A stretch of DNA of 64,000 nucleotides from Aliiruegeria haliotis (GTDB taxonomy: Bacteria > Pseudomonadota > Alphaproteobacteria > Rhodobacterales > Rhodobacteraceae): NCBI RefSeq assembly GCF_003003255.1, contig NZ_PVTD01000002.1:372001-436000 (forward strand), given 5' to 3'. Under the pieces are notes generated by a model. It saw nothing but the letters and a program-made list of their open reading frames with translations, made no database searches and was not told where the DNA came from. The position numbers were made by a program, and so were the translations under genes. This document shows, in pieces, positions 1-34,985 of this stretch (its first letter is position 1; each line of letters starts with the position of its first letter).

Positions 1-3000
1 GCCAATGGCGTGCAACGTGTCGGTCACGCTCTGCTCCCCGCCCAACACATCCTGCCAGATTGCGACAATCCGGCGTTCCATGTTGGTGTCGGCGGCGACG
101 CACGGGCGCAGCGGCATCACGATCGCGCTGTCCTGCGGATCGGGCAGCGCCTTCCGGTCGAGCTTGCCATTGCCGGTTTGCGGCAGCGAGGTCAGCACCA
201 CCCAGGCTCGGGGTTGCATGTAATCGGGCAGTTGCCGGGCCATCGACGCCGCTAGCGCGGATTGGTCGATCTCAGCGGCAGGCTCTGCCACCAGATATGC
301 GACGAGGTGCCGGTCACCGTTCGCGCGTTCTCGCAGGGCCACGGCCGCTGCGGCCACGTTTGGCTCTGCGCGCAGGCGGGTCTCTATGTCTCCAAGTTCG
401 ATACGGAAACCACGCAACTTGATCTGCGTGTCCCTGCGTCCGAGCACCCGAACCTCGCCGTTTGGCATTCTCCGGGCGAGATCGCCAGTGCGGTACAGGC
501 GCCGTGTGCGCCCGCCCAATGTGACATCCCGGAAGGCGGCTCCCGTCAGGTCGGGGCGGTTGTCGTAGCCAAGCGCCAGCCCCGCGCCGCCAATGTTCAG
601 TTCTCCGACCGCCCCCAGCGGCAACAGGGCATCCGCATCGTCGACGACATGCAGCTCCGTGTTGCCGATCGGGTGTCCGATGGTGATGGGCCTGCCGGGC
701 GCCAGTTTTTGCACCGCCGACCAGATCGTCGTCTCTGTCGGGCCGTACATGTTCCACACCTCGCCGCCCCCCGCGAGCAGACGGTCGGCAAGGTCCGAAG
801 CGATGGGCTCGCCGCCTGCAAGCATCCGCAGGCCGGCATGCGGCGCGAAGCCGGCCTCCAGCAGCATCGACCACAGCGTGGGAGTCGCCTGCAGGCAGGT
901 GATATCTCCCTGCTCCAACCGCTCGACGAGCCGGAAACCGTCAAGCACTTCGTCGCGGTCGGCGATGACAACCCGCCCTCCGACCACCAGCGGCCCGAAC
1001 AGCTCCAGCACCGCGATGTCGAACATGACCGTTGTAACCGAGAGCAGCGTGTCATTCGCGCTCAGCCCCGGCTCCCGCGCCATGCTGGTCAGGAAGTTGA
1101 CCACGGCGCGGTGCGGGATCTCCACACCCTTGGGCGTGCCGGTCGAGCCGGATGTGAAGATCACGTAGGCTGCGGCTTCCGGGTCGCGCGGCACCGGGGC
1201 GGGCCGCGCCCGGGCCACGGCGTCGGAGGGCGACAGGCAGCGCAAGCCGCCGGCGAAGCCCGGCGTATCCTTGGCCAGAACGGCGGACACGCCAGCCGTC
1301 TGCACGATCTGACGCAAACGCGCGTCGGGCTGCGCGGGATCGAGCGGGACATAGGCGTGGCCCGCCTTCAGCACTGCGAGCAACCCGACAAGCATGCCCC
1401 CCCCACGTGGGAGCGCCACGGCAACCCGTTCGCCCGGCTCTGGCAGAGCCTGCTGGATCAGCGCCGCCAGCGCGTCCGACTTCTGTTCGAGGTCGGCGTA
1501 GCGCAATGCACCGTCCACCCCCTCCACGGCGATCGCCTCCGGCGTCGCCTTTGCCGTGAGGGTCACGAGGTCCTGCAACACCGCGCCACGATCGAACTCC
1601 ATGCCGGTGTCGTTCGCCATGCCGGCCAGCGCGACCTCTGCTTCGGGATCGAGCAGCGGCAGCGCGCGGACCGGGCGCGCCATGTCCTCGACAAGCCCCC
1701 GCAGGACCGTGACAAGGTGGCCGATCCAGCGATCCACGGTGTCCTTCGCATAGAGATCCGAATTGTAGTCGACCTCGATCTGCAGCCCCTCCGGCACCTC
1801 CGCCATGTTGAAGAACAGGTCGAAATTGGTCGCGGCCTTGTCGACGCTCTCGGGTCGTGCGGTCAATCCGGCCATCGGAAAGCTGCCGGCACGTTTCTCC
1901 AGGTTGAACTGGACTTCCGTCAGCGGCATGCGGTTGAGCGAGCGTTCTATCTTCAGGTCGCGGACCAGCGCGCCATATGTCGTGTCCTGATGATCAAAGG
2001 CTCTGAGGACAGCGTCGGAGACGCGCTTCAGGTGGTCAGCGGCTGGCTCTTCCGGGTCGAAAGCCGCCCGGATCGGCAGCATGTTGACAAGGTGCCCGAC
2101 AAGGTTTGGGTTCGGCAGTTGCGCCTGCCCGCCGGTTGGGACGCCAAGCACGATATCCTGTGCGCCGCTGAGACGTCCGAGCGTGAACTGCAACGCGGCA
2201 AAGAGCGTCGCGAAGAGGGTGCACCCCTGCTTTGCTCCCGCACGCCGGATCGCCTTGACCTCATCCTTGTCCAACGCCGCGCGGGTGGTCGCGCCCGCAT
2301 AGGATCTGATCGCCGGACGGGGCGCATCGGTTGGCAGCTCCGGCAGGTCGGGCTGTGCCTCGTACACGCCCTGCCAGAACTCCAGGCTCTGGGCCGTGGG
2401 GGGCACCTGCGCATCGCGCGCGTGGCGCGCGAAGGAGGGCGCGGGCGGCAGATCCGCAGGAGACCCGGTGCAGGCAGCCGAATAGAGGGCCGACAGCTCC
2501 TCGAAGAGCACACCATAGGACCAGCCATCGCAGGCAATGTGATGGGCCATGAACAGGAGGACATGCCGCTCCCCGCCCAACCGATAGAGCCGCGCGCGGA
2601 TCGGCAGGTCGTTGGTGATGTCCAGCGGCAGACGGGCCTCCGCGTCCAGCGCCTCCGCCAGTGCAGAATCCGGGTAGGGCCGCGTCGAAAGGTCGATATC
2701 CTCCGGCGCGAAGGGGCGGGGCTCGACCACGTCGAAATGGCTGCCACTCCGGTCGAAAACCGCGCGCAGCGCATCGTGCCGGGCCATCACGCCGTCGAGC
2801 GCGACTTGCAAGGCCGACCGGTCAAGCTCACCGTCAAGGTGCAAGACCGCGCCTTCGTTGAAGCTGCACGCTTGCGCGTCGCCCAACTGGTGGGTCATCC
2901 AGACCTCACGCTGCGCTTCGGTGAGCGGAATGGCCTTCGTGGGCACAGCGTCGCCATCCAACACCACATGCATCCCCCCCGCATCGGGCTGGAGAATTCC

Positions 3001-6000
3001 AACCGATTGCAGGGTATCGAGGGCTGTCTCGAATGCCTGCAGGATCGTGTCAGCATGTTCGTCAGTATGGGCCGTGGTCAGGAAACCGCCAAACCCGTCC
3101 AGAACGTGCACGCCCTCATAGCGCATGAGCGCATAGAGCAGCGAAGCCCTTGGGTCATGCTGGCTGACGCGCAGTATGAACCAGCTGGAGAACGTCTCCA
3201 CGAGGTCCGGCAAGCCGCGCCGCGCCAGCGCCCCCCGCATACGTTCCACCAGACGTTCGGTCAGCGCGGCCGTGTCGTCGTGCAGCCGCGCGCCCTCTGC
3301 CTCAAGGTGATCCAGCACCGCATCCACCGCCGCAAGCACCAGCGGATGGCGCACATTTGTCCCGGCAAAGAAGGTTGGCGAAACCTCGGGTATGCTGTCG
3401 TCTCCAAACGCCCAGACACCACCGTCGAGCACATCCATAAAGCGCGCGCGCCCGGCCAGAACGCCCACGGGCATGCCGCCGCCCACGACCTTGCCATAGG
3501 TCGCGAGGTCCGCTTCGATCCCCCAGAGGCCCTGCATTCCGCGGATATGGGTGCGGAAGCCGGTGACGACCTCATCCATGATCAGGGCCGCGTCGGCTTC
3601 CTTCGTGATCTGGCGCACCTCCCGCACGAAATCGGCCGGGCGGAAGGCCGGGTGCCGGCTCTGCACCGGCTCGACCAGCGCAGCTGCAAGCGTGCCTGCG
3701 TTGTCCCGCAGCCAGTCCAATGCCGCAGGATCGCCGTAGGGCAGCACAACCATGTTGCCGAGACCCGAGCGTGGAATACCCGGAGCGATGGGCAAGGCGG
3801 TGGGCTCCCCCGCCCGCGCGCGGCCTTTGACCAGCACTTCGTCGAACTGACCATGATAGTCGCCGGAGAACACGGCAATGCGCTCGCGCCCGGTAGCGGC
3901 CCGCGCAAGACGCATCGCGGCCATCACCGCCTCGGAGCCGGTGTTGCAAAAGGTCACGCGTTCATGCCCGGTTGCCCGGGCAAACTTCCGTGCCACGGGA
4001 CCGGCCATGTCTGCCTGCGGACCGATCGGATAGCCGCGCTCCATCTGCGCCATGACGGCAGCGGACACAAAGTCGGGCGAGTGACCAAAGGCTGTCTGGC
4101 CAAACCCGTTGACCAGATCGATCAGGTGGTTGCCGTCGACATCCTCGATCTCGGCCCCCTTTGCCTTGCCCACGACCAGCGGGAAGGTCAGTTCCTTCCA
4201 CTCCGGGCGAAACCCCGAAACCGTGCGGGGATCGGCATAGACGGTGCGATGCTCTGCAGTCGACGCCTTGGAGCCGGCAAATTTCTCCGAGTAGCGGCGC
4301 GCGAAGTCGTCGACAAAGGCCCGCTGCGCCGCATCCAGTTCACCGCCCGTCACGTCCGGACCGCGACCGGTACGAAACCCTTTCGGCTTGGCGGTCGCGT
4401 CCGAGGATGCCGCCGGATCCGGGGACCGGGGCGTGCCGGTGTCCACCTGAGGCGTCGTTTGTGGGGACGCCGCGGCGTTTTCCGACACCGAATGGCCGTT
4501 CGACTGGAGCACGCGCAACTGGTCTGCGATGAGCGTTTGCATTGCCTGAAGCTGGCTTTGCATGAGTGCCGCGACACCATCGGCGCTGGCACCACCCTGC
4601 GGCGGCGCCAGCGGCACCACGGGACCCTGTGGGGCCGGAGTTGGGGCAAGAGCCTCCACCGGCACCGCAGGCGGCAGCGCATCCTCTGGCAACACAGTGT
4701 CGAGATGAGCGCACAAGGCCGCGATGCTGGGCGTGTCGGACAACAGGCTGCGGAAACTCATCTGCACGCCGAAACGCTTTTCGAGCGCCTGGCTCACCTG
4801 TCCCATGAACAGAGAATCAAATCCAAGCTCAAGGAACGGTACGTCGACATCGGCGGCGTCCAGCGCCTCGCCCGACAGGTCGGAGAACATCGCCAACAGT
4901 TCCTCCCGCAGGCGGTCCGCCCGTGCGGGCTGGTTGATTGGATCTTGCATCGCGGGCTCCGCTGGCAACTTGGGTTCGGTGGCAATAGCGGGGTTGCCTG
5001 TCGCGGCCACGGGGGTGGCCCCCGTCGCAGCCTCGGGCAGCGATGCAGGCGCGGCCGCGGGTGGATCCACCCAGTAGCGCTTGCGCCGGAACACCGTGCC
5101 GGGCAGCGAACACCTCCGGCGGGCGCGCGGGCCGAGCCGCGCCCAGTCCACCGGCACCCCCGCCGCCCAGAGATTGGCAAAAGCGGAGGCCATGGCATCG
5201 ACATCACATTCGGTTTGGGTGTGGTCCGTCAGTGACTGAACAATCCCGCCATGGCCTCCGCGGCCGAGCACCTGGGCACTGAAGGTAGAGAGGGTCGCAC
5301 CCGCCCCCACCTCCAGCAAAACCCGGGGTGCCCCTTCGCAAGCCACCTTCACGGCAGCCTGGAAATTCACTGCGGCGCGAGCCTGTGCCGCCCAGAAGGC
5401 GGGGCTTTGCGCCTCTTCGTCTGTCATCCACGTGCCGGTCACTGAAGAGACCAGCGGGATCTCTGGCGCGCTCAATATTACGCCTCTGATGTCCTGTTCC
5501 AGCGCCTCGACCACCGGGTCCATCATCGCCGAATGGAAGGCGTGGGAGGTGTGCAGGCGTTTGGCGGCAATCCCGGCGTCCGACAGCCGGGCCTCCAGTG
5601 CCTTGATGGCATCGAAAGGGCCGGCCACAACCTGCTGTTTGGGGGCGTTCATCGCCGCGAGGTCGACGCCCGCACCGAGATGCGGCCTCAGCGCATCCAA
5701 CGGAGCGCGCACCGAGAGCATTGCGCCACCGGGCTGGTCCTGCATGTGTTGGCCGCGCGCCGCGATGATGCGCAACCCGGTCTCGAATTCCATGACCCCA
5801 GCCAGCGCAGCGGCGGTGAACTCGCCAACCGAGTGGCCAATCATCGCCATGGGCCGGACTCCACGCTCCATCCACAGGTGCGCGCAAGCGTATTGCACAA
5901 GATAGAGCGCCGGCTGGGTGAGCCGCGTGTCGCGCAGCGCACGGGCCGCCTCTTCGGCATCGAGATCGTTGCGTGTCAGCAAGCCGGTCAGATCGTCGCC

Positions 6001-9000
6001 CATGATCGGGCGCAAAATCTCCGCCCCATGGTCGATCCATTTGGCAAATCCGGGTTCGGCCTCGTAGAGCCCACGCCCCATGCCAGGGTATTGCGAGCCC
6101 TGCCCCGGGAACATGAAGACAACCTCGGCCCCGGTCTCCGCTGCCGGCTGTGTGGGCGACGAGGCCCGGCGCAACTTGCGAACGACATCGGCGGTCGTGG
6201 ACCCGGCCACGGCAAGCCGCCACGGATGCGCGTGGCGACCGTCCTGCAGAGTTCGTGCGGCGGCATCGAGCGGCGGCGCATCCTCACGGTCCAGCGCGTC
6301 GGCCAGGTTGGCAGCGGCCTCCGCCAACGCCTCCGGCGACCGGGCCGACAGCGGCAGCGCCTGCACACCAGGTTCGGTCTTTTCGGCCGGATCCGTGACG
6401 TCGGGGGCCTCTTCCAGGACCAGGTGCACGTTCGTGCCGCCGACCCCGAAGGAGCTGACCCCCGCGCGCCGGGGCCCTTCGCCCTGCCAGGCCGCCACGC
6501 AGTCGGGAACCCGGAAGGCACCATCCGAAAGGTCGACCCTCGGGTTCAACTTCGTAAAACCGGGAACGGGTGGGATCTCGGCGGCCCGCAAAACCTGTAC
6601 TGTCTTGATCACGCTGGCGACGCCCGCAGCGGCGTCGAGATGCCCGATGGTTCCCTTGACCGATCCGAGCGCACAACCCTCCGGCATCGATCCTTCGAAG
6701 GCACGGGCGAGTCCGGAAAGCTCCACCGGGTCGCCCAGTGGCGTCGCGGTGCCGTGGCACTCCACGTAGCCGATGGTGGACGGGTCGAGCGCCGCATCGC
6801 GATGGGCCATGCGGATCGCATTGGCCTGCCCCTCGACCGAAGGCGCGGTGTAGGAGATCTTGTCGGAGCCGTCGTTGTTGATACCGACACCCCGGATCAC
6901 CGCAAGCACGGGATAGCCGTCCGCCAGCGCGTCTTCCAGGCGGCGCAGGACCACGACCCCCGCTCCGGACCCGAAAACGGTGCCATTGGCGGCGGCATCG
7001 AAGGGGCGGCACACGCCGTCGAGCGATCCGATCCCGCCTTCCTGCGGAATGTAGCCGCGCCGTTGCGGGAAGGTTATGGAGACGCCGCCAGCCAGGGCCG
7101 CATCGGCCTGACCGGCGCGCAATGCGGCTACGGCCTGCGCAATGGCCGTCAGCGAGGTCGAGCACATCGTGCCAACGTTGATCGCCGGTCCCTTGAGGTT
7201 CAGCTTGTGCGCCACCCGGGTCACGAGGCTGTCGTGGTTGTTACCCGCCGCACGGGTCATTCCGCCGAGCTGATAGGTGCCGGAAAACTGCTCTACCGAG
7301 GCACGGTCGTGAAAAAGGTTCTGCAGCAGGTAGGTGCTGGGCGAGCTTCCGGCGTAGAGCGCGATCGGCCCGGGCGGGCGCGACGGGTCGATGCCGGCAT
7401 CGTCCAGTGCCAATTGGCACAATTCGAGGAAGATGCGCGCCTGCGGATCCATTTCCTGCGCCTCTTTCGGCAGGATTCCGAAATGTCGGGCGTCGAACAT
7501 GTCCACATCGTCCAGCGACGGCCGCACAGGGACAAATGCCGGATCATTCCGGTCGGGCCCACCGGCGTCCAGCTCCTCCGGATCAAAGCGTCGAAACAGG
7601 TTGTCACCCTTGCGGATGTGCTCCCAGAAGGCATCGAGAGACGCGACCCCCGGCAACCGCGCGGCCATGCCGACGATGGCGATATCGCCGCTCGACACAT
7701 GTTCTGACGCGGGTGCTGCCGCCGTGTGGCCCGCGTCCGCCCGCAGATCCGCAAGCGCTGCAACCAGCTCACCGAAACGCGGCGTCTCGAACATCTGTGC
7801 GATGGGGAAGCGCACGCCCAACGCGGCCTCTATCTGCGAATGGGCATCGATCAGCTGAAGCGAACTGCCCCCTGCGTCGAAGAAGGTCACGTCGCCTGAA
7901 GGTGTTCCGCAACCGAGTATCGCATCCCAGACCGCCGCGACGGCCCCGCGAACATCGAGGCCGCGCCGGACAGCGGCGTCACCAACCGGTTCCGAGCGAG
8001 TCATCAGGCGCTCCAATGCCTTTCGGTCTACCTTGCCGGCCGTGGTCAGCGGAAAGGCGTCCAGCGAAAGAACCTGCCGCGGCACTTCCATCGGGTGCAG
8101 GGTCTCGCCCGCCCGTTCGAGAACGTCCGCAACGGCCGCATTGTCGTCGGTCAGCAGCGCCGCTGCGATCCGCATTTCGCCGCGCTCGGGCGTCAGGATC
8201 ACGACGGCCGCGTCACGGACCCCGGGCTGCGCCCGCAACACATGCTCGATGCCATCCAGTTCGATCCGTCGGCCGTGCAACTTGACCTGCCGGTCGACGC
8301 GGCCGGAGAAGATGAACGCGCCATCCTCGCGTTGGCTGGCAAGGTCACCGGTCAGGTAGACTGTCCCGCAATGCTCCTCGCGCGGATCATCGACGAACAC
8401 CTCGGCGGTCTTTTCGGCGCGGTTGTGGTAGCCAAGGGCAACCGCCGGCCCGGCAAGGACAAGCTGGCCGGTCTGGCCGGATGGCAGCGGGCGCAAATGC
8501 TCGTCAACGACGAAAGCCTCGTAGCCTTCAAAGGGCACGCCGATCGGGATGGCACCGCCGTCCAGATCTTCGGGTCCGACCCGGTGGTGCAGGGCACCGA
8601 CCGTCGTCTCTGTCGGGCCATAGCCATTCAATACCGTCACCTGCGGCCAGGCTTCGATCAGGCGCGCGACATGACCCGCGGACATGACATCGCCGACGGC
8701 CAGGTTCAGCCGAAGCGAAGCAAACGCATCCAGCCGGTGATCGATCATCAGGTGATGAAGCCCGGCATACCAGGCAACCGCCGTGACTTGCTGCGCGACC
8801 AACACCCGGGCAATGTCGTCGAGCGAGGGGTGCTCCTCCTCCACGATCGCAATGCAAGCACCGTTCAGCAATGCACTCCAGATATCGAAGGTCGAGCCGT
8901 CGCAAGCGATGGTGAGGCAATGCAGCACAACATCGTCAGGACCCATCCCGACCGCACCGATGCCATTACAGAATGCCCGAACACCCCGCCGGGTCACCAG

Positions 9001-9540
9001 CACTCCCTTGGGGCGCCCGGTCGAACCGGAGGTGTACATCACGTAGGCCAGGTCGTCCGCTCCCGGCGGAACATCCTCCCCCAGAGGAACGGACTGCGCC
9101 AGCGCCGTGCTCAGGTCGAGCCGTTTCGCAGTCCCTCCCAGCAGGGTGTCGGCTTCCTTGGCCCAACGCTCGGCAACGAGAACGTGTCGAAATCCGAGGT
9201 CGTCGCAGATCCCGGGGATCTGTTCCGGCGCATGGGTCGGATCGAGCGGGACATAGGCCGCTCCGGCTTTCAGTATCCCGAGAATGGCAACAATAGCGTC
9301 CACCGAGCGGGCCGCGAGCAGGCCGACCCAGTCGCCCGGTCGAACTCCTGACTGCCGCAAGGATGCAGCCACGCGGGACGCTGAAGTGTCGAGTTCTGCA
9401 TAGGAGAGTATGGTGGTAGCCGAGACGATGGCCGGGGCATCAGGGGCTCGGCGGCAATGCCCGCCAAAGACCGAGAGCATATCGCACCGCCGCAACGCGG
9501 TGCCGCCCCGGTCCGGATATGGTCCAATGTCACTCGTCAT
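1..9540 (-). CDS. Hybrid NRPS-PKS megasynthase with internal aminotransferase (3' end outside window)
   Basis: One uninterrupted minus-strand frame begins at ATG 9540 behind a GAGGG Shine-Dalgarno and runs off the left edge (at least 3180 residues). Domains in order: adenylation A1 (about 1-510, TSGSTG near 168, NGYGPTE near 304); carrier T1 (Ser560 in GGSS); ketosynthase (about 620-1050, Cys793 in MCSTS, His in ECHGTATPLGDP near 927, GHLDAAAG near 967); acyltransferase (about 1140-1430, GHSVGEF near 1237, HAFH near 1334, which fits malonyl-CoA); ACP (Ser1576 in LGFDSL); a Pro/Ala-rich linker; class-III PLP aminotransferase (about 1735-2160, Lys2017 in YGKVVGGG); condensation domain (HHIACDG, catalytic His2334); adenylation A2 (TSGSTG near 2795); and the start of a second carrier domain cut at position 1. 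No KR, DH or methyltransferase is present. By analogy with iturin/mycosubtilin and microcystin synthases, the aminotransferase should convert a beta-keto thioester to a beta-amino acyl chain before condensation. The product is unknown. Confidence 0.95.
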   Translation of the reverse strand, partial: MTSDIGPYPDRGGTALRRCDMLSVFGGHCRRAPDAPAIVSATTILSYAELDTSASRVAASLRQSGVRPGDWVGLLAARSVDAIVAILGILKAGAAYVPLDPTHAPEQIPGICDDLGFRHVLVAERWAKEADTLLGGTAKRLDLSTALAQSVPLGEDVPPGADDLAYVMYTSGSTGRPKGVLVTRRGVRAFCNGIGAVGMGPDDVVLHCLTIACDGSTFDIWSALLNGACIAIVEEEHPSLDDIARVLVAQQVTAVAWYAGLHHLMIDHRLDAFASLRLNLAVGDVMSAGHVARLIEAWPQVTVLNGYGPTETTVGALHHRVGPEDLDGGAIPIGVPFEGYEAFVVDEHLRPLPSGQTGQLVLAGPAVALGYHNRAEKTAEVFVDDPREEHCGTVYLTGDLASQREDGAFIFSGRVDRQVKLHGRRIELDGIEHVLRAQPGVRDAAVVILTPERGEMRIAAALLTDDNAAVADVLERAGETLHPMEVPRQVLSLDAFPLTTAGKVDRKALERLMTRSEPVGDAAVRRGLDVRGAVAAVWDAILGCGTPSGDVTFFDAGGSSLQLIDAHSQIEAALGVRFPIAQMFETPRFGELVAALADLRADAGHTAAAPASEHVSSGDIAIVGMAARLPGVASLDAFWEHIRKGDNLFRRFDPEELDAGGPDRNDPAFVPVRPSLDDVDMFDARHFGILPKEAQEMDPQARIFLELCQLALDDAGIDPSRPPGPIALYAGSSPSTYLLQNLFHDRASVEQFSGTYQLGGMTRAAGNNHDSLVTRVAHKLNLKGPAINVGTMCSTSLTAIAQAVAALRAGQADAALAGGVSITFPQRRGYIPQEGGIGSLDGVCRPFDAAANGTVFGSGAGVVVLRRLEDALADGYPVLAVIRGVGINNDGSDKISYTAPSVEGQANAIRMAHRDAALDPSTIGYVECHGTATPLGDPVELSGLARAFEGSMPEGCALGSVKGTIGHLDAAAGVASVIKTVQVLRAAEIPPVPGFTKLNPRVDLSDGAFRVPDCVAAWQGEGPRRAGVSSFGVGGTNVHLVLEEAPDVTDPAEKTEPGVQALPLSARSPEALAEAAANLADALDREDAPPLDAAARTLQDGRHAHPWRLAVAGSTTADVVRKLRRASSPTQPAAETGAEVVFMFPGQGSQYPGMGRGLYEAEPGFAKWIDHGAEILRPIMGDDLTGLLTRNDLDAEEAARALRDTRLTQPALYLVQYACAHLWMERGVRPMAMIGHSVGEFTAAALAGVMEFETGLRIIAARGQHMQDQPGGAMLSVRAPLDALRPHLGAGVDLAAMNAPKQQVVAGPFDAIKALEARLSDAGIAAKRLHTSHAFHSAMMDPVVEALEQDIRGVILSAPEIPLVSSVTGTWMTDEEAQSPAFWAAQARAAVNFQAAVKVACEGAPRVLLEVGAGATLSTFSAQVLGRGGHGGIVQSLTDHTQTECDVDAMASAFANLWAAGVPVDWARLGPRARRRCSLPGTVFRRKRYWVDPPAAAPASLPEAATGATPVAATGNPAIATEPKLPAEPAMQDPINQPARADRLREELLAMFSDLSGEALDAADVDVPFLELGFDSLFMGQVSQALEKRFGVQMSFRSLLSDTPSIAALCAHLDTVLPEDALPPAVPVEALAPTPAPQGPVVPLAPPQGGASADGVAALMQSQLQAMQTLIADQLRVLQSNGHSVSENAAASPQTTPQVDTGTPRSPDPAASSDATAKPKGFRTGRGPDVTGGELDAAQRAFVDDFARRYSEKFAGSKASTAEHRTVYADPRTVSGFRPEWKELTFPLVVGKAKGAEIEDVDGNHLIDLVNGFGQTAFGHSPDFVSAAVMAQMERGYPIGPQADMAGPVARKFARATGHERVTFCNTGSEAVMAAMRLARAATGRERIAVFSGDYHGQFDEVLVKGRARAGEPTALPIAPGIPRSGLGNMVVLPYGDPAALDWLRDNAGTLAAALVEPVQSRHPAFRPADFVREVRQITKEADAALIMDEVVTGFRTHIRGMQGLWGIEADLATYGKVVGGGMPVGVLAGRARFMDVLDGGVWAFGDDSIPEVSPTFFAGTNVRHPLVLAAVDAVLDHLEAEGARLHDDTAALTERLVERMRGALARRGLPDLVETFSSWFILRVSQHDPRASLLYALMRYEGVHVLDGFGGFLTTAHTDEHADTILQAFETALDTLQSVGILQPDAGGMHVVLDGDAVPTKAIPLTEAQREVWMTHQLGDAQACSFNEGAVLHLDGELDRSALQVALDGVMARHDALRAVFDRSGSHFDVVEPRPFAPEDIDLSTRPYPDSALAEALDAEARLPLDITNDLPIRARLYRLGGERHVLLFMAHHIACDGWSYGVLFEELSALYSAACTGSPADLPPAPSFARHARDAQVPPTAQSLEFWQGVYEAQPDLPELPTDAPRPAIRSYAGATTRAALDKDEVKAIRRAGAKQGCTLFATLFAALQFTLGRLSGAQDIVLGVPTGGQAQLPNPNLVGHLVNMLPIRAAFDPEEPAADHLKRVSDAVLRAFDHQDTTYGALVRDLKIERSLNRMPLTEVQFNLEKRAGSFPMAGLTARPESVDKAATNFDLFFNMAEVPEGLQIEVDYNSDLYAKDTVDRWIGHLVTVLRGLVEDMARPVRALPLLDPEAEVALAGMANDTGMEFDRGAVLQDLVTLTAKATPEAIAVEGVDGALRYADLEQKSDALAALIQQALPEPGERVAVALPRGGGMLVGLLAVLKAGHAYVPLDPAQPDARLRQIVQTAGVSAVLAKDTPGFAGGLRCLSPSDAVARARPAPVPRDPEAAAYVIFTSGSTGTPKGVEIPHRAVVNFLTSMAREPGLSANDTLLSVTTVMFDIAVLELFGPLVVGGRVVIADRDEVLDGFRLVERLEQGDITCLQATPTLWSMLLEAGFAPHAGLRMLAGGEPIASDLADRLLAGGGEVWNMYGPTETTIWSAVQKLAPGRPITIGHPIGNTELHVVDDADALLPLGAVGELNIGGAGLALGYDNRPDLTGAAFRDVTLGGRTRRLYRTGDLARRMPNGEVRVLGRRDTQIKLRGFRIELGDIETRLRAEPNVAAAAVALRERANGDRHLVAYLVAEPAAEIDQSALAASMARQLPDYMQPRAWVVLTSLPQTGNGKLDRKALPDPQDSAIVMPLRPCVAADTNMERRIVAIWQDVLGGEQSVTDTLHAIG

Positions 9541-9924: not shown

Positions 9925-10728
9925 TCAAACCGAATCTGTTCTCAGTTCCAACATGAAACCGCAACTCTCCATCATGCCCAGCCCCGGATGCGTTGGAATC
10001 CGCCGCCCAAGCTCCGGGATGGTCCAGCTGTCCCGGAGGGCGTAGCCCAAGCTGTCCACCTCCGCGAGGAAGGCCGCGCGGTTCCGGATCCGGTAGGGCA
10101 CCCGCGCAGGACCGATGCGTTCCAGCGTGACAACCTCCCTCGCATCCCAAAGCGCCACCTTGTTGAGCAGGATCAACGGCGGACGCTTGGGAAGCGCGTC
10201 CACAAAACCGCCGAAAGGTTGGTCGAGATATTGCAACAGACCCGAGGCAAGGAGCAGGTCTGGCGCGGCCACCTGTGCCGGGCTGTCCGCGAAACGAATG
10301 CTGGCCGGAAGCGATCCACGCCCCTGCGCTGTTCTGGCGGCGGAAACAATCGCAGGCAGATCGGTGACGGTCCAGGTCACCTGATCCAGCGCCACCAGAT
10401 CCCGGAACGCGATATATTTTGTCCCCATGTGCCCACCGGCATCGAGCAGGTTCATTCCCGGGCGAAGCTGTTTTTGCAGCCAGAAGAGAATCGGATAGTC
10501 CCACGGCGCGACCCTGCACATGCGCTCGAAGGAGATCGCTTCCGTACCGGGGGTCTCATACCCGGCGCGGCGCCCTTCCGGCAGGGCGTCGAGCGCTGCC
10601 ATCCGCGTGGGCCAGGCGCCGGCGAACCGGGGCGGCCGCCCCGCGAGAAGCTTCAGCCGCGCTACGGCGGCCCCGACCGGACGCGATACATTACGCGCGG
10701 CCCCCTTCGCGATAGACACGAGCCCCAC
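9925..10728 (-). CDS. Putative SAM-dependent methyltransferase of polysaccharide locus
   Basis: The protein has 267 residues. A Rossmann-type motif I is readable as NLLDAGGHMGTK, followed by a WTVTDLP stretch and a LLASGLLQYL segment, as in class-I SAM methyltransferases. Overall it resembles the putative methyltransferases (TIGR04325-like) found in O-antigen and capsule clusters; that family assignment is from memory. The start is GTG, whose G is shared with the TAG stop of the flippase gene, behind a GGAGGGG Shine-Dalgarno, so translation is very likely coupled. It may methylate a sugar or a carrier-linked glycan in the cytoplasm. The acceptor cannot be told from sequence. Confidence 0.7.
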   Translation of the reverse strand: MGLVSIAKGAARNVSRPVGAAVARLKLLAGRPPRFAGAWPTRMAALDALPEGRRAGYETPGTEAISFERMCRVAPWDYPILFWLQKQLRPGMNLLDAGGHMGTKYIAFRDLVALDQVTWTVTDLPAIVSAARTAQGRGSLPASIRFADSPAQVAAPDLLLASGLLQYLDQPFGGFVDALPKRPPLILLNKVALWDAREVVTLERIGPARVPYRIRNRAAFLAEVDSLGYALRDSWTIPELGRRIPTHPGLGMMESCGFMLELRTDSV

Positions 10729-12239
10729 TACATGTCCCCTCCCTTCGACCCGCGCCGCCGAAGCCGACACATGACGGACCGGCGCAATTTCGGCGCGGTC
10801 ACGGCAAGGCCACCCGCATAGATGGCTACGGCCGGAACACTGAAAAGCACCGCGCGCGCCATCGGATGCCACTCCCGACCAACGGGTCCGTCGCGCAACA
10901 GGACCAGACATCCCGCACCCAGCATCAACGGGACAATGAGCGGCACCATGTTCGGCACCACCTCGCGCCAGTCGATGGCCGCGTAGCGCCGGAACAGGAT
11001 CGCCGTCGTCGTGATGACAGTGACCGAGATGAGGATCTGCGACACGGCCAGCGGGACCAGCCCAAAGGGTGCCGAAACCGCCACCAGCGCCACCGTCACA
11101 CCGAGGTAGAGCAGAGCCACCGGCGGCAGACGGCGGATTTCGCCCGCGAGCGAAAGGACCGGCTCGGTTGTCTGGCCGAACACGGCCAGCATACGGGCGA
11201 TGGCCAGCAGGCCGAGCACCGGCAAGGCCGGAAGCCACTCTTCCCCCAGCAGGCCGACAACGATGTCATGCCCCATCAGCCCGAGCCACAGGAACAATGG
11301 AATCGACGCAGCAAAGACAGCCGGGATGAACCAGTTCGCCACCGACTGGAATCCGTCCGTTTTGCCATCGTGTTTTGCCCGCGCCTGCCGGAAGAGGTTC
11401 CATGCCACGATATGCGCCGGTACTCCGACCACTTCACCCAGCGCGCCGGTCAACCGCTCCGCCGCCCGATAGAAGCCGACCGCCGCGGGGCCAAGGAAGA
11501 AGCCCACGAGGAATGTCGCCGTGTAGACCCGGAAGTTGTAGATCATCCGCGCGAAGAAGAAATGCCCCGAAGTCCTGAGCATAGTCCGGAAGGCATCGCC
11601 ACGCAGACCGGGCAGCGGTGTCATTCGGGTGGCCGCGAAGCTCACCAGCAGATGTGTGGCTTGCATCGCCAACCGGCCATAGGCAAGCGCGAAGACGCCG
11701 GCACCGGAATAGAGCGCCAGCAACGCAATGCCGAGGCCGACCAGTTCACCCGACATTTCTGCCAGCGACGACGCCCGGAGCTGCCCCCGCCAGATCAGGA
11801 TGCCTTTTTGGGTCGACGAGACAACCGCAAGGCAGACCCAGACGGAGAAGAGTTCGACCAGGGTGACGACCTCCGGTGACATCCCGACCGCCGCCAGCAC
11901 TCCGCCGGACACGATACCGAAGATCGCGGCGAGAACCCCGCTGGCGATCGCCACGAGCAGCACCTGCCGTGGCACCGTCGTGTCGCCCGGCCACGACATG
12001 ATGTATGGAGCCCAGCCGCCCTCGGCCACCCGCTGGAGCAGGATGGCGCAAGCGGCAACAAGGGCAAAGAGCCCAAAGTCGGCCGGGCCGAGCAGACGCG
12101 CTGCCACGATGAAGATGACGAGTTGCGCGACCTGGGACACGATCCGCTCCAGCGCCGTCCAAAGACCACCGCCGATCGTCCCGCTCCTGCCGGGCCGCCC
12201 ACTATTGGGATTGGCGCTCGATTTCATTGCCTCTGACAC
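10728..12239 (-). CDS. Polysaccharide flippase, MOP/Wzx family (first copy)
   Basis: This 503-residue polytopic inner-membrane protein has about 12-14 hydrophobic segments and the N-terminal pattern LGPADFGLFALV, characteristic of Wzx-type flippases that move undecaprenyl-diphosphate-linked oligosaccharides to the periplasmic face. GTG at 12239 is preferred as start because GGGAG lies six bases upstream; ATG at 12227 is an alternative with poor spacing. It is divergent from the ExoY-type sugar transferase and overlaps the methyltransferase by one base, so the set forms one export module. A second, different flippase occurs at 51021-52445. Confidence 0.88.
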   Translation of the reverse strand: MSEAMKSSANPNSGRPGRSGTIGGGLWTALERIVSQVAQLVIFIVAARLLGPADFGLFALVAACAILLQRVAEGGWAPYIMSWPGDTTVPRQVLLVAIASGVLAAIFGIVSGGVLAAVGMSPEVVTLVELFSVWVCLAVVSSTQKGILIWRGQLRASSLAEMSGELVGLGIALLALYSGAGVFALAYGRLAMQATHLLVSFAATRMTPLPGLRGDAFRTMLRTSGHFFFARMIYNFRVYTATFLVGFFLGPAAVGFYRAAERLTGALGEVVGVPAHIVAWNLFRQARAKHDGKTDGFQSVANWFIPAVFAASIPLFLWLGLMGHDIVVGLLGEEWLPALPVLGLLAIARMLAVFGQTTEPVLSLAGEIRRLPPVALLYLGVTVALVAVSAPFGLVPLAVSQILISVTVITTTAILFRRYAAIDWREVVPNMVPLIVPLMLGAGCLVLLRDGPVGREWHPMARAVLFSVPAVAIYAGGLAVTAPKLRRSVMCRLRRRGSKGGDM

Positions 12240-12371: not shown

Positions 12372-12402
12372 GTTTGCCAAAAGTGGCCGAAAGATGGCAA
12401 AC
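12372..12402. promoter_or_regulatory. Inverted repeat in divergent flippase / sugar-transferase promoter
   Basis: GTTTGCCA (12372-12379) and TGGCAAAC (12395-12402) are perfect 8-bp arms with a 15-base spacer. The element lies between two divergently transcribed exopolysaccharide genes, where an operator is expected. It also covers the ATG candidates at 12394 and 12403, which argues that the sugar transferase starts further downstream. Confidence 0.45.
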
Positions 12403-12468
12403 ATGTGGCGGGTGTGGTCCTCATTGGCACCAGTGGGGGGAGGTCGCGCAAGCGACCATACAGAAACT

Positions 12469-13170
12469 ATGGTGAACCAGACGGATCCGGGCGCGAGCCT
12501 GGTGGAGGCGGGTGCTGTCCTCGGACAGCGCCACAAACGCGGTGTGACAGCGTTCCCGGAGATCTCGCCAGCCAAGCGATCGCTCGACATCGTGGTCAGT
12601 GTGACCGGGCTGCTGTTCTTCCTGCCAGCCATGCTGACCATTGCGCTTGTGCTCTGGCTCCGCGAAGGCGGACCGGTCTTCTTTGCACACGAACGGATCG
12701 GACATGCGGGTCGACCCTTCAAGTGCCTGAAATTCCGCACCATGGTCCCGAATGCGACCGATGTGCTCGAGGAGTTGCTGGCGAAGGACCCGGCCGCCCG
12801 GGCGGAGTGGGAAAGCACGCAGAAGCTTGCCAAAGATCCCCGGGTCTCCTGCCTTGGCCATTTCCTACGCAAGACGTCGCTCGATGAACTGCCGCAGTTC
12901 TGGAACGTGCTTCAGGGCGACATGTCCGCCGTGGGGCCCCGGCCCATCGTCGCAGATGAAGTGCGGTTCTATCGCGACCATATCGCCGAGTACAAATCCG
13001 TCCGCCCGGGAATCACCGGCAACTGGCAGGTGAACGGGCGTTCCACCACGACCTATGCGGAGCGGGTGGCGATGGATGTGGAATATGTGCGCAATCCGTC
13101 GGTCTGGCGCGACCTCCGGATCATGGTGCGGACGATCAACGTGGTGCTGTCACGGGATGGTGCCCGCTAG
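12469..13170 (+). CDS. ExoY-type undecaprenyl-phosphate sugar transferase
   Basis: The protein has 233 residues from ATG 12469. It shows one N-terminal membrane helix (LDIVVSVTGLLFFLPAML) and the full bacterial sugar-transferase signature: FAHERIGHAGRPFKCLKFRTM, LRKTSLDELPQFWNVL, GDMSAVGPRP and RPGITGNWQVNGRS. It is expected to transfer a hexose-1-phosphate from a nucleotide sugar to undecaprenyl phosphate, priming repeat-unit assembly at the inner membrane. In-frame ATGs exist at 12394 and 12403 but fall inside the inverted repeat, and no strong ribosome site marks any of the three, so the start is uncertain. The gene is divergent from the first flippase. A second priming enzyme of another subtype is at 34266-34985. 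Confidence 0.88.
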   Translation: MVNQTDPGASLVEAGAVLGQRHKRGVTAFPEISPAKRSLDIVVSVTGLLFFLPAMLTIALVLWLREGGPVFFAHERIGHAGRPFKCLKFRTMVPNATDVLEELLAKDPAARAEWESTQKLAKDPRVSCLGHFLRKTSLDELPQFWNVLQGDMSAVGPRPIVADEVRFYRDHIAEYKSVRPGITGNWQVNGRSTTTYAERVAMDVEYVRNPSVWRDLRIMVRTINVVLSRDGAR

Positions 13171-13320: not shown

Positions 13321-13407
13321 CGGGTTCTTCCGTCGGTCTCTTGCACGCCCCCCAGCGTTCCGGTGGACCGTGCCAGTATTGAGTGAAACAGTCAAAGGGT
13401 ATGTGTG

Positions 13408-14349
13408 ATGGAGGCGACGACCCAGCCCGCCAACATGAGGCCCCGCCCGGAGGATGCCCCTGCACCGGAGCTGCCCCGCAGGCTGATCGTTGCCATCCCC
13501 AGCACAGCTCGGCGGGACATTCTGACCCGCACGGTTCGGGCTATTCGTGAGCAGACCCGGCACCCCGACCAACTTCTGATTTCAGTCGCATCGGACGGCG
13601 ACATCGACCGAACCGCGCTTTCCGACCTGCCGTTTCCGATCCGTGTGCTGACCGGGCCGAAAGGTGGCAGCCCGCAGCGCAACCGCATTTTCCAACACCT
13701 CACTGAGGCTGACACGGTCCTGCTCCTCGACGACGATTTCCTTATGGAAAAAGGCTACCTGGCCGCTGTCGACGCGCTTTTCAAGACGCAACTCGACGTC
13801 GTCATGGCCTCTGGAACCCTTGTGGCTGATGATGTCTCCGGCCCCGGCCTGACACATGAGGATGGCCAGGGCCTGCTTGAAGATCTTCCGCCTACAGGAT
13901 CCAGCCTGACGGATATCCACAACGGCTACGGATGCAACATGGCGTTCCGTGCACGCCCGGCGCTCCGCAACAACATCCGCTTCGATGAGGCACTGCCGCT
14001 CTACAGCTGGCTGGAGGATGTGGACTTCTCACGCCGCCTGGCACCCTACGGTCGGATTGTTCGCAATGAGGCAACAGTCGGTGTCCACCTTGGAACCAAG
14101 GTCGGCCGCTCTCCCGGGCGCCGGCTCGGCTATTCGCAATTATCCAACCCGGTCTACCTTGTCGGGAAAGGCACCATGGGGCGCAGGCGCGCCCTGCGCC
14201 TGATGACCCGGAACGTTGTGTCCAATCTCGTGTACTCGATTCGACCGCGCCCATGGACGGACAGTCGTGGGCGCTTGCGGGGCAACCTGCTCGCCATCGG
14301 CGACCTGCTCCGCGGCAGGCTGTCGCCGGCGCGCGCGGTCGACCTCTGA
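13408..14349 (+). CDS. Family 2 glycosyltransferase
   Basis: The 313-residue protein has a GT-A fold pattern: IVAIPSTARRDILTRTVRAI at the N-terminus, GGSPQRNR, the metal-binding LLLDDDF (DXD-type) near residue 110, NGYGCNMAFR and the catalytic-region WLEDVDFSRR. It should add one sugar to a lipid-linked oligosaccharide in the cytoplasm. The start is ATG 13408, with GTG 13405 one codon upstream and AAAGG before it. It follows the sugar transferase on the same strand after about 240 bp. The sugar and linkage cannot be inferred. Confidence 0.85.
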   Translation: MEATTQPANMRPRPEDAPAPELPRRLIVAIPSTARRDILTRTVRAIREQTRHPDQLLISVASDGDIDRTALSDLPFPIRVLTGPKGGSPQRNRIFQHLTEADTVLLLDDDFLMEKGYLAAVDALFKTQLDVVMASGTLVADDVSGPGLTHEDGQGLLEDLPPTGSSLTDIHNGYGCNMAFRARPALRNNIRFDEALPLYSWLEDVDFSRRLAPYGRIVRNEATVGVHLGTKVGRSPGRRLGYSQLSNPVYLVGKGTMGRRRALRLMTRNVVSNLVYSIRPRPWTDSRGRLRGNLLAIGDLLRGRLSPARAVDL

Positions 14350-16071: not shown

Positions 16072-16086
16072 ACCGGAGCACAGCCA

Positions 16087-18579
16087 ATGACCATGTCAGA
16101 CTCTCGCCGGACTTTCCTGAAATCGACCGCAGCCGTGGCGACCGCGTCCGCCGCGGGGATCACCCTGCCCAACGCGCCCGCCGATGCCCAGGCCCGCACC
16201 CCGGATATCCGCTGGGACAAGGCCGCATGCCGGTATTGCGGCACCGGCTGTTCGGTGCTCGTGGGGACCAAGGAAGGTCGCGTCGTGGCTACGCAAGGCG
16301 ACCCGGATGCACCGGTGAACCGCGGGTTGAACTGCATCAAGGGCTATTTTCTATCCAAGATCATGTACGGTTCGGACCGGCTGACCACGCCGATGCTGCG
16401 GAAGTCGGGCGGCCAGTTCGACAAGAACGGCGAGTTCGAGCCCGTGAGCTGGGACGAGGCCTTCGATGTCATGGCCGAGAAATGGAAGGCCGCCCTGAAG
16501 GAGAAGGGCGGCGCGGGTGTGTCGATCTTCGGTTCCGGCCAGTGGACGGTCTGGGAAGGCTACGCCAACGCGAAGTTCATGAAGGCCGGCCTGCGGTCGA
16601 ACAACATCGACCCGAACGCGCGCCATTGCATGGCCTCTGCCGTTGTGGGCTTCATCCGCACCTTCGGCATCGACGAGCCGATGGGCTGCTATGACGATCT
16701 GGAGCACGCCGATACCTTCGTGCTCTGGGGGTCCAACATGGCGGAGATGCACCCCATCCTGTGGTCGCGCCTGACCGACACGCGCCTGACCAAGCCGGGT
16801 GCCCAGGTGCACGTGCTCTCCACCTTCGAGCACCGCTCGTTCGAGCTGGCCGACAATGGCATCATCTTCGAGCCGCAGACCGATCTCGCGATCCTGAACT
16901 TCATCGCCAACTACATCATCCAGAATGACAAGGTGAACAAGGACTTCCTGGAGAAGCACGTCAACATCACCAAGACGGCGACGGATATCGGCTACGGGCT
17001 GCGCGACGAGCATCCGCTCCAGATGGAAGCGGCGAACCCGAACTCCGGCAAGCTGGAGCCGATGAGCTTCGAGGAATATGCCGCTGCCGTCTCCGAGTAC
17101 ACGGCCGAGTACGTCTCCGAGCTGTCCGGTGTTCCGGTAGCGCAGCTCGAAGCGCTGGCAGAGCAATATGCCGACCCGAACCGCAAGGTAATGTCGCTCT
17201 GGACAATGGGCTTCAACCAGCACACCCGCGGATCCTGGGTGAACTCGCTGATGTACAACGTGCACCTGCTGGTCGGAAAGATCTCCGAGCCGGGCAACTC
17301 GCCCTTCTCGCTGACGGGCCAGCCCTCCGCCTGCGGCACCGCGCGCGAGGTCGGCACCTTTGCCCACCGCCTGCCTGCCGACATGGTCGTGGCCAACGAC
17401 AAGCACCGCGAAATCTGCGAGACCGCCTGGAACGTGCCGGCCGGGACCATCCCGCCGAAGCCCGGTTTCCACGCCGTGCTCCAGCACCGCAAGCTCAAGG
17501 ATGGCGACCTGAAGTGCCACTGGGTGCAGTGCAACAACAACATGCAGGCCGCGCCCAACATGAACGAGGAAGGCTACCCGGGCTATCGCAACCCGGAGAC
17601 CTTCATCACCGTGTCGGACCCCTACCCGACCGTGACCGCGCTGGCCGCCGACCTGATCCTGCCCACTGCCATGTGGGTTGAGAAGGAAGGTGCCTACGGC
17701 AATGCCGAGCGCCGCACCCAGTTCTGGCGCCAACAGGTGCAGGCTCCGGGCGAGGCGAAGTCGGACCTTTGGCAGGTGATGGAATTCTCCAAGCGCTTCA
17801 CGGTGGAGGAAGCCTGGGGCGAGGAACTCATTGCGCAGAAGCCCGAACTTGCCGGCAAGACGCTCTACGAGGTCCTGTTCGAGAACGGCGAAGTGAACAA
17901 GTTTCCGCTCAGCGAAACCGCAGAGGGGTTCCACAACGACGACGCGGAACACTTCGGCTACTACGTGCAGAAGGGGCTGTTCGAGGAATATGCCGGCTTC
18001 GGCCGGGGTCACGCCCACGACCTCGCCCCGTTTGACACCTACCACCAGGCCCGCGGCCTGCGTTGGCCAGTGGTCGACGGCAAGGAAACGCTCTACCGCT
18101 TCCGCGAGGGCTACGACCCATATGTCGAGGAAGGCAAGGGCGTGCAGTTCTACGGCAAGCCGGACGGCAAGGCGAACATCATCTTCGCGCCCTATGAACA
18201 GGCGGCCGAGAGCCCGGATGACGAATATGACCTCTGGTTCTGCACCGGCCGTGTGCTGGAGCATTGGCATTCCGGCTCGATGACCCGCCGGGTCCCGGAA
18301 CTGCACCGCTCCTATCCTTCGGCCGTAGTCTACATGCATCCGAAGGACGCCCAGGCACGTGGTTTGCGGCGCGGCCAGGAGATCGTCGTCTCCACCCGCC
18401 GCGGCGAGGTCACCTCGCGCGTGGAAACCCGCGGACGTAACAAGGTGCCCGAAGGGCTCGTGTTCATGCCTTGGTTCGACGAGGGCCAGCTCACCAACAA
18501 GCTGACGCTCGACGCGACCTGCCCGCTCTCCAAGGAGACGGACTTCAAGAAATGCGCCTGCAAGGTCGAACGGGCCTGA
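16087..18579 (+). CDS. napA: Periplasmic nitrate reductase catalytic subunit NapA
   Basis: The 830-residue molybdoenzyme has a twin-arginine signal SDSRRTFLK followed by an Ala-rich hydrophobic stretch. The [4Fe-4S] motif reads [10 protein letters not shown] with the fourth ligand in GLNCIKG. Cys181 (in ARHCMAS) is the expected molybdenum ligand of the bis-MGD cofactor. Length and sequence match full-length NapA throughout. It reduces nitrate to nitrite in the periplasm with electrons from NapB and NapC and/or NapGH. No broken or missing motif was seen. Confidence 0.97.
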
Positions 18580-18626: not shown

Positions 18627-19496
18627 ATGGCCACCGCCGCAAAACCGAAGAAAGTCGATCGCCGGCGGTTCCTGACGGACACCGCGCGGATGACGGCTGG
18701 CTGTGCGGTGGCGGGCTCTCTGCTGGCTTACGTGACGCGGGACGCCAAGGCTCTGCCGGACACCGCGCTCCGCCCGCCCGGCGCACTCGCGGAGGACGAT
18801 TTCCTTGCCGCCTGCATCCGGTGTGGGCTTTGCGTGCGCGACTGCCCCTATGACACACTTGTCCTGGCCGAGCTCGGCCAGGACGGCCCGGCCACGGGCA
18901 CGCCCTATTTCACGGCCCGCGACATTCCCTGTGAGATGTGCGACGACATCCCCTGCGTCGCCGCCTGCCCGACAGGCGCGCTCGACAAGGGTCTGACAAA
19001 TATCGAACACGCCCAGATGGGCACGGCCGTTCTGGTCGATCAGGAAAACTGCCTGAACTACCTCGGGCTTCGCTGCGACGTCTGTTACCGGGTTTGCCCG
19101 ATGATCGACGAGGCGATCTCGCTGGACCTGCTCCACAACGAGCGCTCAGGACACCACGCCATTTTCGCGCCGATCGTGCATGCGGAAGCGTGCACCGGCT
19201 GCGGTATCTGCGAACAGAAATGCGTCCTGCCCGAGGCGGCGATCAAGGTCCTGCCCGTCCGGCTCGCCCGTGGCGCCCCCGGAGAACACTACCGGCTCGG
19301 CTGGGAGGAGAAGGAAGCCAAGGGCGCGCCGGTCGTCGAGGGGATCATCGATCTTCCCGACCGCCTGCCCGGCCCCGGCACCGACAACCTCGCCGCACCG
19401 GGCGGCTTTGTCGACGGTTTGCCGGCCTCACCGGAGAGCAGTTTCCAGGGGGGCGGCTTCGAGCCGACCTACAAGCTGCCGGAGGTGACGCGATGA
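18627..19496 (+). CDS. napG: NapG ferredoxin-type quinol dehydrogenase component
   Basis: The 289-residue protein has a Tat signal ([25 protein letters not shown]) and four ferredoxin Cys groups: [43 protein letters not shown] and [12 protein letters not shown]. NapG is a periplasmic iron-sulfur protein that works with the membrane protein NapH to pass quinol electrons towards NapA. It overlaps napH by four bases. Its presence beside napC gives this operon two possible quinol-oxidising routes. Confidence 0.95.
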
Positions 19497-34269: not shown

Positions 34270-34985
34270 CCGCCGTTCCTGTCGAGGTTAGGCCCCGCGA
34301 GGAAGCCGGTGGTTGGCAAGTCGCGCGGCGTGAAGGTACCCAGTTCGATGCCGGCAGGCGGCACAGCACCGAATACGGCAAACACACCCCGGACGATCCA
34401 GGCAATGTCGGTCCAGATCGTTCTTGTCGGGTAATACGCGAGATCGAGGGCCGCCTTCGCCGGGAACAGGGTTTCCCGGTAGAACCGGATCAGGTCGCTG
34501 CCTTTAGGGTAAAGCGCGCATTCATTGCGGAAGGTCACCTGGCTCGGGCCGAAGATCCCCGGCCGTTCGTCAAGCACGGCCAGCACGTCGTCGGTGAAGC
34601 AATCGGCAAACGCGAGACTTTCCGGCCTTGGCCCGACCACCGCCATATCCCCGCGAAGGATATTGTAGAGCTGGGGCAACTCGTCGAGTTTCGTTTCCGC
34701 CAGAACCTTGCCGACACGGGTCATGCGCTTGTCGTTCTGAAGGGTCAGCGGGCAGCCGTCGTCGCGACGGTCGTCCAGCTTTCTGAACTTGTACATCCGG
34801 AACCGCTTGCCGTCGCGCCCGATGCGCGTCTGCGCGAAGAACACCGGGAAGCCGGACTCAACAACGATGGCAATCGCAATGACGATCATGAGCGGGCTCA
34901 GGATGACAATGCCGAGGAGGGCAAGCGCAATGTCGAGCAAGCGCCCCAGAAATGCATGAATGGGCGAACGTTTCGAATAAGTCAT
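34266..34985 (-). CDS. PglC-like phosphoglycosyl transferase
   Basis: The 239-residue protein has a membrane hairpin/helix (LLDIALALLGIVILSPLMIVIAIAI) and the monotopic phosphoglycosyl transferase core: FFAQTRIGRDGKRFRMYKFRKL, AETKLDELPQLYNIL, GDMAVVGPRPES and RPGIFGPSQVTF. It should transfer the 4-amino (or acetamido) dideoxy sugar phosphate made by its operon neighbours to undecaprenyl phosphate. It differs from the ExoY-type enzyme at 12469 in the acceptor-side sequence, so the locus may prime two different glycans. Confidence 0.88.
   Translation of the reverse strand: MTYSKRSPIHAFLGRLLDIALALLGIVILSPLMIVIAIAIVVESGFPVFFAQTRIGRDGKRFRMYKFRKLDDRRDDGCPLTLQNDKRMTRVGKVLAETKLDELPQLYNILRGDMAVVGPRPESLAFADCFTDDVLAVLDERPGIFGPSQVTFRNECALYPKGSDLIRFYRETLFPAKAALDLAYYPTRTIWTDIAWIVRGVFAVFGAVPPAGIELGTFTPRDLPTTGFLAGPNLDRNGG

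Follow-up and report, generated by a model that had tools for sequence, protein, structure and literature searches.

A hybrid peptide-polyketide assembly line recurrently paired with Wzx/Wzy polysaccharide genes in Aliiruegeria haliotis and its relatives suggests a decorated surface polymer

Introduction

Several known systems invite comparison with an assembly line that combines nonribosomal peptide synthetase and polyketide synthase modules (NRPS-PKS). The iturin and mycosubtilin synthases start from a fatty acyl chain. Streptothricin biosynthesis relies on an NRPS to join beta-lysine chains to an amino sugar and is not known to involve a PKS-borne aminotransferase. In mycobacteria, the thioesterase (TE) of Pks13, which has a serine nucleophile and is not known to belong to a Wzx/Wzy locus, acylates trehalose to give a lipid product. 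We know of no characterised Wzx/Wzy polysaccharide pathway that has an NRPS-PKS as a constant part. Here, we analyze a 64,000-nucleotide stretch of the Aliiruegeria haliotis genome (contig NZ_PVTD01000002.1, positions 372,001 to 436,000; G000:C2:372001-436000 in our coordinate frame), hereafter the window, whose left end encodes an NRPS-PKS megasynthase beside polysaccharide genes.

The pairing of this assembly line with polysaccharide genes recurs over many alpha- and betaproteobacterial genera, and this recurrence suggests that bacteria carrying the locus equip a sugar polymer of their surface with a peptide-like group made for the purpose. A more far-reaching possibility, to which we give a probability of about 0.42, is a new class of surface polymer, the NRPS-PKS-decorated polysaccharide. 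It would combine a variable amino-acid starter with a fixed glycine linker, and a beta,gamma-diamino-acyl-glycine would be handed to each repeat unit by a terminal module that has a condensation domain without its catalytic histidine, a carrier domain, a cysteine TE, and no adenylation domain of its own. The starter domain would thereby diversify an exposed cationic cap, much as O-antigens are diversified.

Results

A pattern search with the 922-residue terminal protein of the line alone gave five matches and no true relatives; we therefore scanned the contigs of named genomes with an alignment of the in-line aminotransferase domain (AMT). This yielded 261 relatives confirmed by tblastn, of which the best 80 were kept, from Aliiruegeria, Tropicimonas, Ruegeria, Sulfitobacter, Pseudooceanicola, Jannaschia, Rhizobium, Chelativorans, Stappia, Novosphingobium, Paraburkholderia, and other genera. 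At E 1e-120 or better, the AMT was found in 15 of 295 genomes of the window's family and in 6 of 385 of its class, while the terminal protein had matches in 11 of the 295 family genomes (E 1e-60). In a quick tree with long outgroup branches, the near AMTs fall on one side of a single branch (84 of 98 rows, SH-aLRT 98).

To evaluate linkage, we took 35 of the 80 loci, picked to span the more distant orders, and searched the whole genomes for PF02397 sugar transferases, AMTs, and PF13440 flippases with a distance cut of 35 kb, the expected linkage being derived from the number of PF02397 genes and the genome sizes. In 33 of the 35 genomes, the AMT and a PF02397 gene are no more than 35 kb apart, where 1.57 such genomes would be expected, a result on which we rejected a chance neighbourhood; both misses have the AMT on short contigs (8.5 and 10.6 kb). 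A PF13440 flippase is equally close in 26 of the 35, and Paraburkholderia heleia, one of the misses for this family, has a PF01943 protein in its cluster. Ten further near-AMT genomes (E 1e-210 or better) gave a PF02397 gene within 35 kb in eight cases and none on that contig in two. The preliminary description of this DNA had called the exopolysaccharide context unfamiliar. The megasynthase is no one-off beside unrelated genes: its family is widespread and the polysaccharide genes are its conserved partners.

The gene content of individual loci agrees with this linkage. In the PLSDB annotation of Jannaschia sp. M317, a sugar transferase, a flippase, a TIGR04325 methyltransferase, the NRPS/PKS, a condensation protein, a phosphopantetheinyl transferase (PPTase), a glycosyltransferase, and a tyrosine autokinase are consecutive. 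Rhizobium sp. CCGE532 has a similar core with a DegT aminotransferase, a pyruvyl transferase, and a polysaccharide export protein, and Pfam searches on ten genes each from the Rhizobium leucaenae and P. heleia clusters were consistent. A search for condensation domains in 33 of the 35 genomes (E 1e-30) gave none beyond the two of this cluster in 28, and the genome of the window likewise has just these two. Very probably, the NRPS-PKS and the polysaccharide genes act in one pathway.

The megasynthase itself is encoded by a minus-strand open reading frame (ORF) that is open throughout positions 1 to 9540 and runs off the edge of the window. On the contig it is a single protein of 3,249 residues (G000:C2:371791-381540), of which residues 1 to 3180 are encoded in the window and the last 69 codons lie to its left (G000:C2:371791-372000). 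Pfam and domain BLAST give the domain order adenylation (A), carrier (T), ketosynthase (KS), acyltransferase (AT), acyl carrier (ACP), AMT, condensation (C), A, T. All domains lie on the minus strand. The loading domain A1 (8011 to 9459) has the code DGFALVGVG, of the alpha-amino-acid type, and is followed by T1 (7741 to 7968), with GGSSL in its sequence. The KS (6376 to 7698) has an intact Cys-His-His set, the AT (5191 to 6138) carries GHSVG and HAFH, and the ACP (4681 to 4923) was located by Pfam. The AMT, a class-III pyridoxal-phosphate aminotransferase domain, occupies positions 2986 to 4323, C1 (1621 to 2958) has an intact HHIACDG, and A2 (121 to 1608) has the glycine-type code DILQLGMIW. 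T2 begins at positions 1 to 93 and continues left of the window. Pfam matches comprised two stretches of AMP-binding, three PP-binding domains, both halves (N and C) of ketoacyl-synthase, Acyl_transf_1, Aminotran_3, and Condensation, with E values from 1.1e-147 to 1.1e-31; no ketoreductase, dehydratase, or enoylreductase family was found on the megasynthase at E 0.001. The order read in the preliminary description, with its in-line aminotransferase and an extension module free of ketoreductase, is thus borne out. Extension of the sequence leftward, as it had suggested, added the second carrier and then a separate protein outside the window. From its domains, we read the complete line as A-T-KS-AT-ACP-AMT-C-A-T followed by C-(dA)-T-TE, where dA denotes a putative A-domain remnant.

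We aligned the active sites of the family (at most 86 rows, with at least three genomes entered twice under two locus identifiers). The preliminary description had raised a possible loss of active-site residues; the sites that build the chain are kept, namely, the KS triad in 79 of 79 rows, GHSxG and HAFH of the AT each in 81 of 81, the AMT lysine in 86 of 86, and HHxxxDG of C1 in 83 of 85. On this ground, we rejected a pseudogene or relic. HAFH is a malonyl-type AT motif. Against solved structures, the AMT profile matched the mycosubtilin synthase AMT best (6kfm; E 2.7e-148), with glutamate-semialdehyde aminomutases far behind (2.9e-61).

Specificity codes were read as nine residues per A domain after alignment to GrsA PheA. 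For A2, the code DILQ-G--W, the glycine signature, occurs in 81 of 83 rows. Counts for A1 cover the domains fused to the KS, of which all 50 have an Asp at the equivalent of PheA D235; the amino-acid starter of the preliminary description agrees with this. Among these 50 rows there are 26 different codes, while A2 is near-constant, and A1 identity to the window is below A2 identity in all 44 loci with both domains (mean gap, 13.8 points; three duplicate loci dropped). In six loci (L059, L078, L040, L072, L073, and L108), the synthase ORF starts at T-KS and gave no detectable A1; their starter would be loaded differently or in trans. The established logic of PKS, AMT, and NRPS modules predicts that the line, as far as T2, makes a beta,gamma-diamino acyl-glycine, in line with the diamino unit foreseen earlier.

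The gene directly to the left of the megasynthase (G000:C2:369026-371794; L004:6026-8794), outside the window, encodes the 922-residue protein, in which Pfam finds Condensation, PP-binding, and thioesterase domains. The stretch between its condensation domain (C2) and its carrier (T3) reads like what is left of an A domain's C-terminal portion. The catalytic His of C2 is lost in 59 of 78 rows. The TE has the alpha/beta-hydrolase fold that is common to type I TEs generally, and a Cys serves as its nucleophile in each of the 64 rows where a TE is detectable. The canonical His and Asp are kept in 32 of these rows; the His is absent in 31, including that of the window, and one row is cut. A His at Cys+2 occurs exactly in the 31 aligned rows that lack the canonical His. 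Judging from these residues, the TE active site seems to have been rewired. Next to this gene, a 259-residue minus-strand ORF was rejected as a shadow ORF, as it has no Pfam match and the plus-strand PPTase is better conserved.

These features bear on an alternative in which the TE sets free a small peptide or amide, perhaps a metallophore or signal, that acts alone, and the polysaccharide neighbours are kept by co-regulation or joint transfer. That the line ends in a TE-fold domain favours such a product, and the 32 rows with canonical His and Asp are compatible with ordinary release. We nevertheless consider it unlikely, given a linkage of 33 in 35 against 1.57 across orders that differ in their accessory genes, a TE without the canonical His in the window's clade, and no exporter other than the flippase among the cluster genes scanned.

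To the right of the megasynthase, the minus strand encodes a TIGR04325-family methyltransferase, a recurrent partner (9925 to 10737; start codon approximate), and a Wzx/MOP-type oligosaccharide flippase (10728 to 12239). These are followed on the plus strand by a WbaP/RfbP-type polyprenyl-phosphate sugar transferase, the initiating enzyme (12394 to 13170), and a family-2 glycosyltransferase at the right edge of the conserved cluster (13405 to 14349). Overall, the conserved locus, about 29 kb long, comprises the initiating sugar transferase, Wzx, a polymerase of WaaL/Wzy fold, a Wzz/tyrosine kinase (BY-kinase), glycosyltransferases, the PPTase, and the methyltransferase. The window's locus thus has these four parts of a Wzx/Wzy pathway (initiating transferase, Wzx, Wzy/WaaL-fold protein, and Wzz/BY-kinase), its initiating transferase being of PF02397 type. 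The Wzy/WaaL-like protein, whose model we examined with VIA-align, belongs to a family that is recognisably the same in Tropicimonas, Rhizobium, Paraburkholderia, and Novosphingobium. Ligase and polymerase are not separable by sequence or fold here; as the window's cluster showed a single protein of this type, polymerase is its likeliest role. Among the scanned genes of the window's cluster, we saw no Wza/OPX export protein, and a polysaccharide biosynthesis/export family is annotated in the CCGE532 and Aliiroseovarius M344 stretches.

Two other products of these genes can be envisaged. If the glycosyltransferases decorated the peptide and the lipid-linked machinery exported it with no long polymer, the secreted product would be a small glycopeptide or glycolipopeptide. 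The flippase and the several glycosyltransferases at the locus would suit this, but the WbaP-type initiator, the Wzz/BY-kinase, and the WaaL/Wzy-fold membrane protein are parts of polymer pathways, and a Wzz-domain protein is found in the clusters of the window, R. leucaenae, and P. heleia, which makes such a product very improbable. The peptide might instead be an end group or anchor, present once per chain and attached, for example, by the WaaL-like protein. This is improbable as well, polymerase being the likeliest role of the one such protein in the window's cluster.

Not every locus of the family has an S15/CocE-like protein: it is encoded in 7 of the 295 family genomes (E 1e-60), each time adjoining this cluster, and at 12 of the 80 named loci. 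All seven have the serine motif GCSALGE and the histidine motif G[TL]HC, the window's copy has a hydrophobic N-terminal segment, and the solved relatives are cocaine esterase and alpha-amino-acid-ester hydrolases. An exported hydrolase of this type is what we would expect if aminoacyl esters were present on an exported glycan.

Genes for a molybdopterin oxidoreductase and a 4Fe-4S protein (16072 to 18576 and 18627 to 19496), which we read as formate-dehydrogenase-like, border the cluster on the right. On the left, TctABC and malonyl-CoA decarboxylase genes were rejected as members, having no BLAST match in the limited stretches around the clusters of ten relatives. Farther into the window, a second PF02397 sugar transferase (34371 to 34943) and a second ORF weakly similar to the relatives' Wzz/BY-kinases (41239 to 43368) suggest, from their sequences, another polysaccharide locus. 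Finally, plasmid 3 of Variovorax sp. WDL1 (locus L129) encodes three TIGR04325-family methyltransferases, two of them immediately behind the NRPS gene; this family may be a general partner of AMT-PKS lines.

Discussion

The following pathway would account for the conserved locus. A1-T1 would load an amino acid, KS-AT-ACP would extend it once with malonyl-CoA, and the in-line AMT would turn the beta-keto group into an amine; C1-A2-T2 would join the resulting beta,gamma-diamino acyl chain to glycine. The separate C-T-TE protein, without an A domain of its own, would accept the chain, and the TE cysteine would transfer it to a sugar acceptor on an undecaprenyl-linked repeat unit, which the sugar transferase and glycosyltransferases of the locus would assemble. 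Once flipped by Wzx, the decorated unit would be polymerised by the Wzy-like enzyme and the Wzz/BY-kinase, and the exported S15/CocE-like enzyme may trim aminoacyl groups or rearrange them. We infer the substrates, the transfer to sugar, and the roles of the methyltransferase and hydrolase. While the linkage is observed, covalent attachment of the product to the repeat unit is an interpretation that we hold to be slightly favoured.

Several observations weigh against this pathway. Linkage alone is compatible with a separate, co-regulated peptide and no covalent bond. By a narrower measure (window genes, tblastn 1e-8, flanks no longer than 10 kb), at least one polysaccharide-type gene shows up in only 63 of the 80 named loci and three or more in 32; nine of the 17 loci with none are Paraburkholderia, in which PF02397 lies 21.8 to 31.1 kb off. 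A PF13440 flippase is missing within 35 kb in 9 of the 35 genomes, and the scanned cluster genes included no nucleotide-sugar gene. The comparison with distant AMTs is a weak control: PF02397 was within 35 kb at 0 of 11 places (10 genomes), of which three have 35 kb of contig on both sides, with contigs down to 3.7 kb, and at one of the places (G120) it lies at 35.1 kb, barely beyond the cut. Overall, 1 of 14 distant AMT-PKSs (the 11 places and three plasmid records) is linked, many of the contigs being short. The distant plasmid locus of Aliiroseovarius M344 is fully linked and clearly a polysaccharide cluster, which weakens the control further. The distant AMT locus of Spirosoma has a copper island and no polysaccharide cluster, and the Variovorax stretch has TIGR04325 methyltransferases and one glycosyltransferase but no sugar transferase.

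The terminal protein raises further difficulties. Five of its 11 family matches span the C domain only, and the loss of the C2 histidine is common rather than universal, the HH being kept in 19 of 78 rows. Without the canonical His, the TE of the window's clade could be inactive. T3 has no cognate A domain, and C2 here has no catalytic His. In yersiniabactin synthesis, a single A domain loads several carriers; by analogy, A2 may load a second glycine in trans. Alternatively, C2 may shift the chain onto the bare T3 thiol, or T3 may be bypassed.

If the linkage reflects chemistry, NRPS-PKS lines would regularly supply building blocks of cell-surface polymers, beyond free secondary metabolites, in many alphaproteobacterial and some betaproteobacterial genera. 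This would account for a recurrent orphan NRPS-PKS whose condensation domains are so often the only ones in the genome. It would also offer a route to cationic, peptide-bearing polysaccharides, with the Cys-TE/C modules as candidate glycan acyltransferases. Full-text searches of a paper library, judged by titles and the starts of abstracts, returned no description of an NRPS-PKS inside a Wzx/Wzy polysaccharide cluster, which is weak evidence for novelty; in PMC11340318, the sole "polyketide" passage among those returned is an item of the reference list.

Each half of the locus is of a known kind, and what appears to be new, in that we have not found it described, is the constant union of an AMT-PKS-NRPS line with a Wzx/Wzy glycan pathway. 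With the AMT-containing PKS-NRPS of iturin, mycosubtilin, and microcystin type, the megasynthase shares KS-AT-ACP, an in-line PLP aminotransferase, and a C-A module, all with intact active sites; as in ItuA and MycA, the class-III aminotransferase is embedded in the PKS after the ACP and directly ahead of the C-A module. Unlike in iturin and mycosubtilin synthesis, an amino-acid A domain takes the place of a fatty- or aryl-acyl-AMP ligase at the start, the predicted glycine is all that follows, and the surroundings are a polysaccharide cluster. Since A1 is of the amino-acid type, the megasynthase reads as a variant of this kind and not as an iturin synthase. With known Wzx/Wzy pathways, the locus shares WbaP/RfbP, Wzx, Wzy, and Wzz/BY-kinase, which recur in the relatives; it differs from them by an NRPS-PKS that comes with a PPTase of its own and by the exported S15/CocE hydrolase that some of the genomes encode. 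The TE shares its alpha/beta-hydrolase fold with the acyltransferase-type TE of Pks13, whose Ser-Asp-His triad is matched neither by the invariant cysteine nor, in the window's clade, by a canonical His, and the product predicted here is a peptide rather than a lipid. Streptothricin offers the likeness of an NRPS-made beta-amino-acid unit joined to a sugar, as we propose here; it is a free antibiotic, whereas the diamino-acyl-glycine of this locus would be carried on a polymer.
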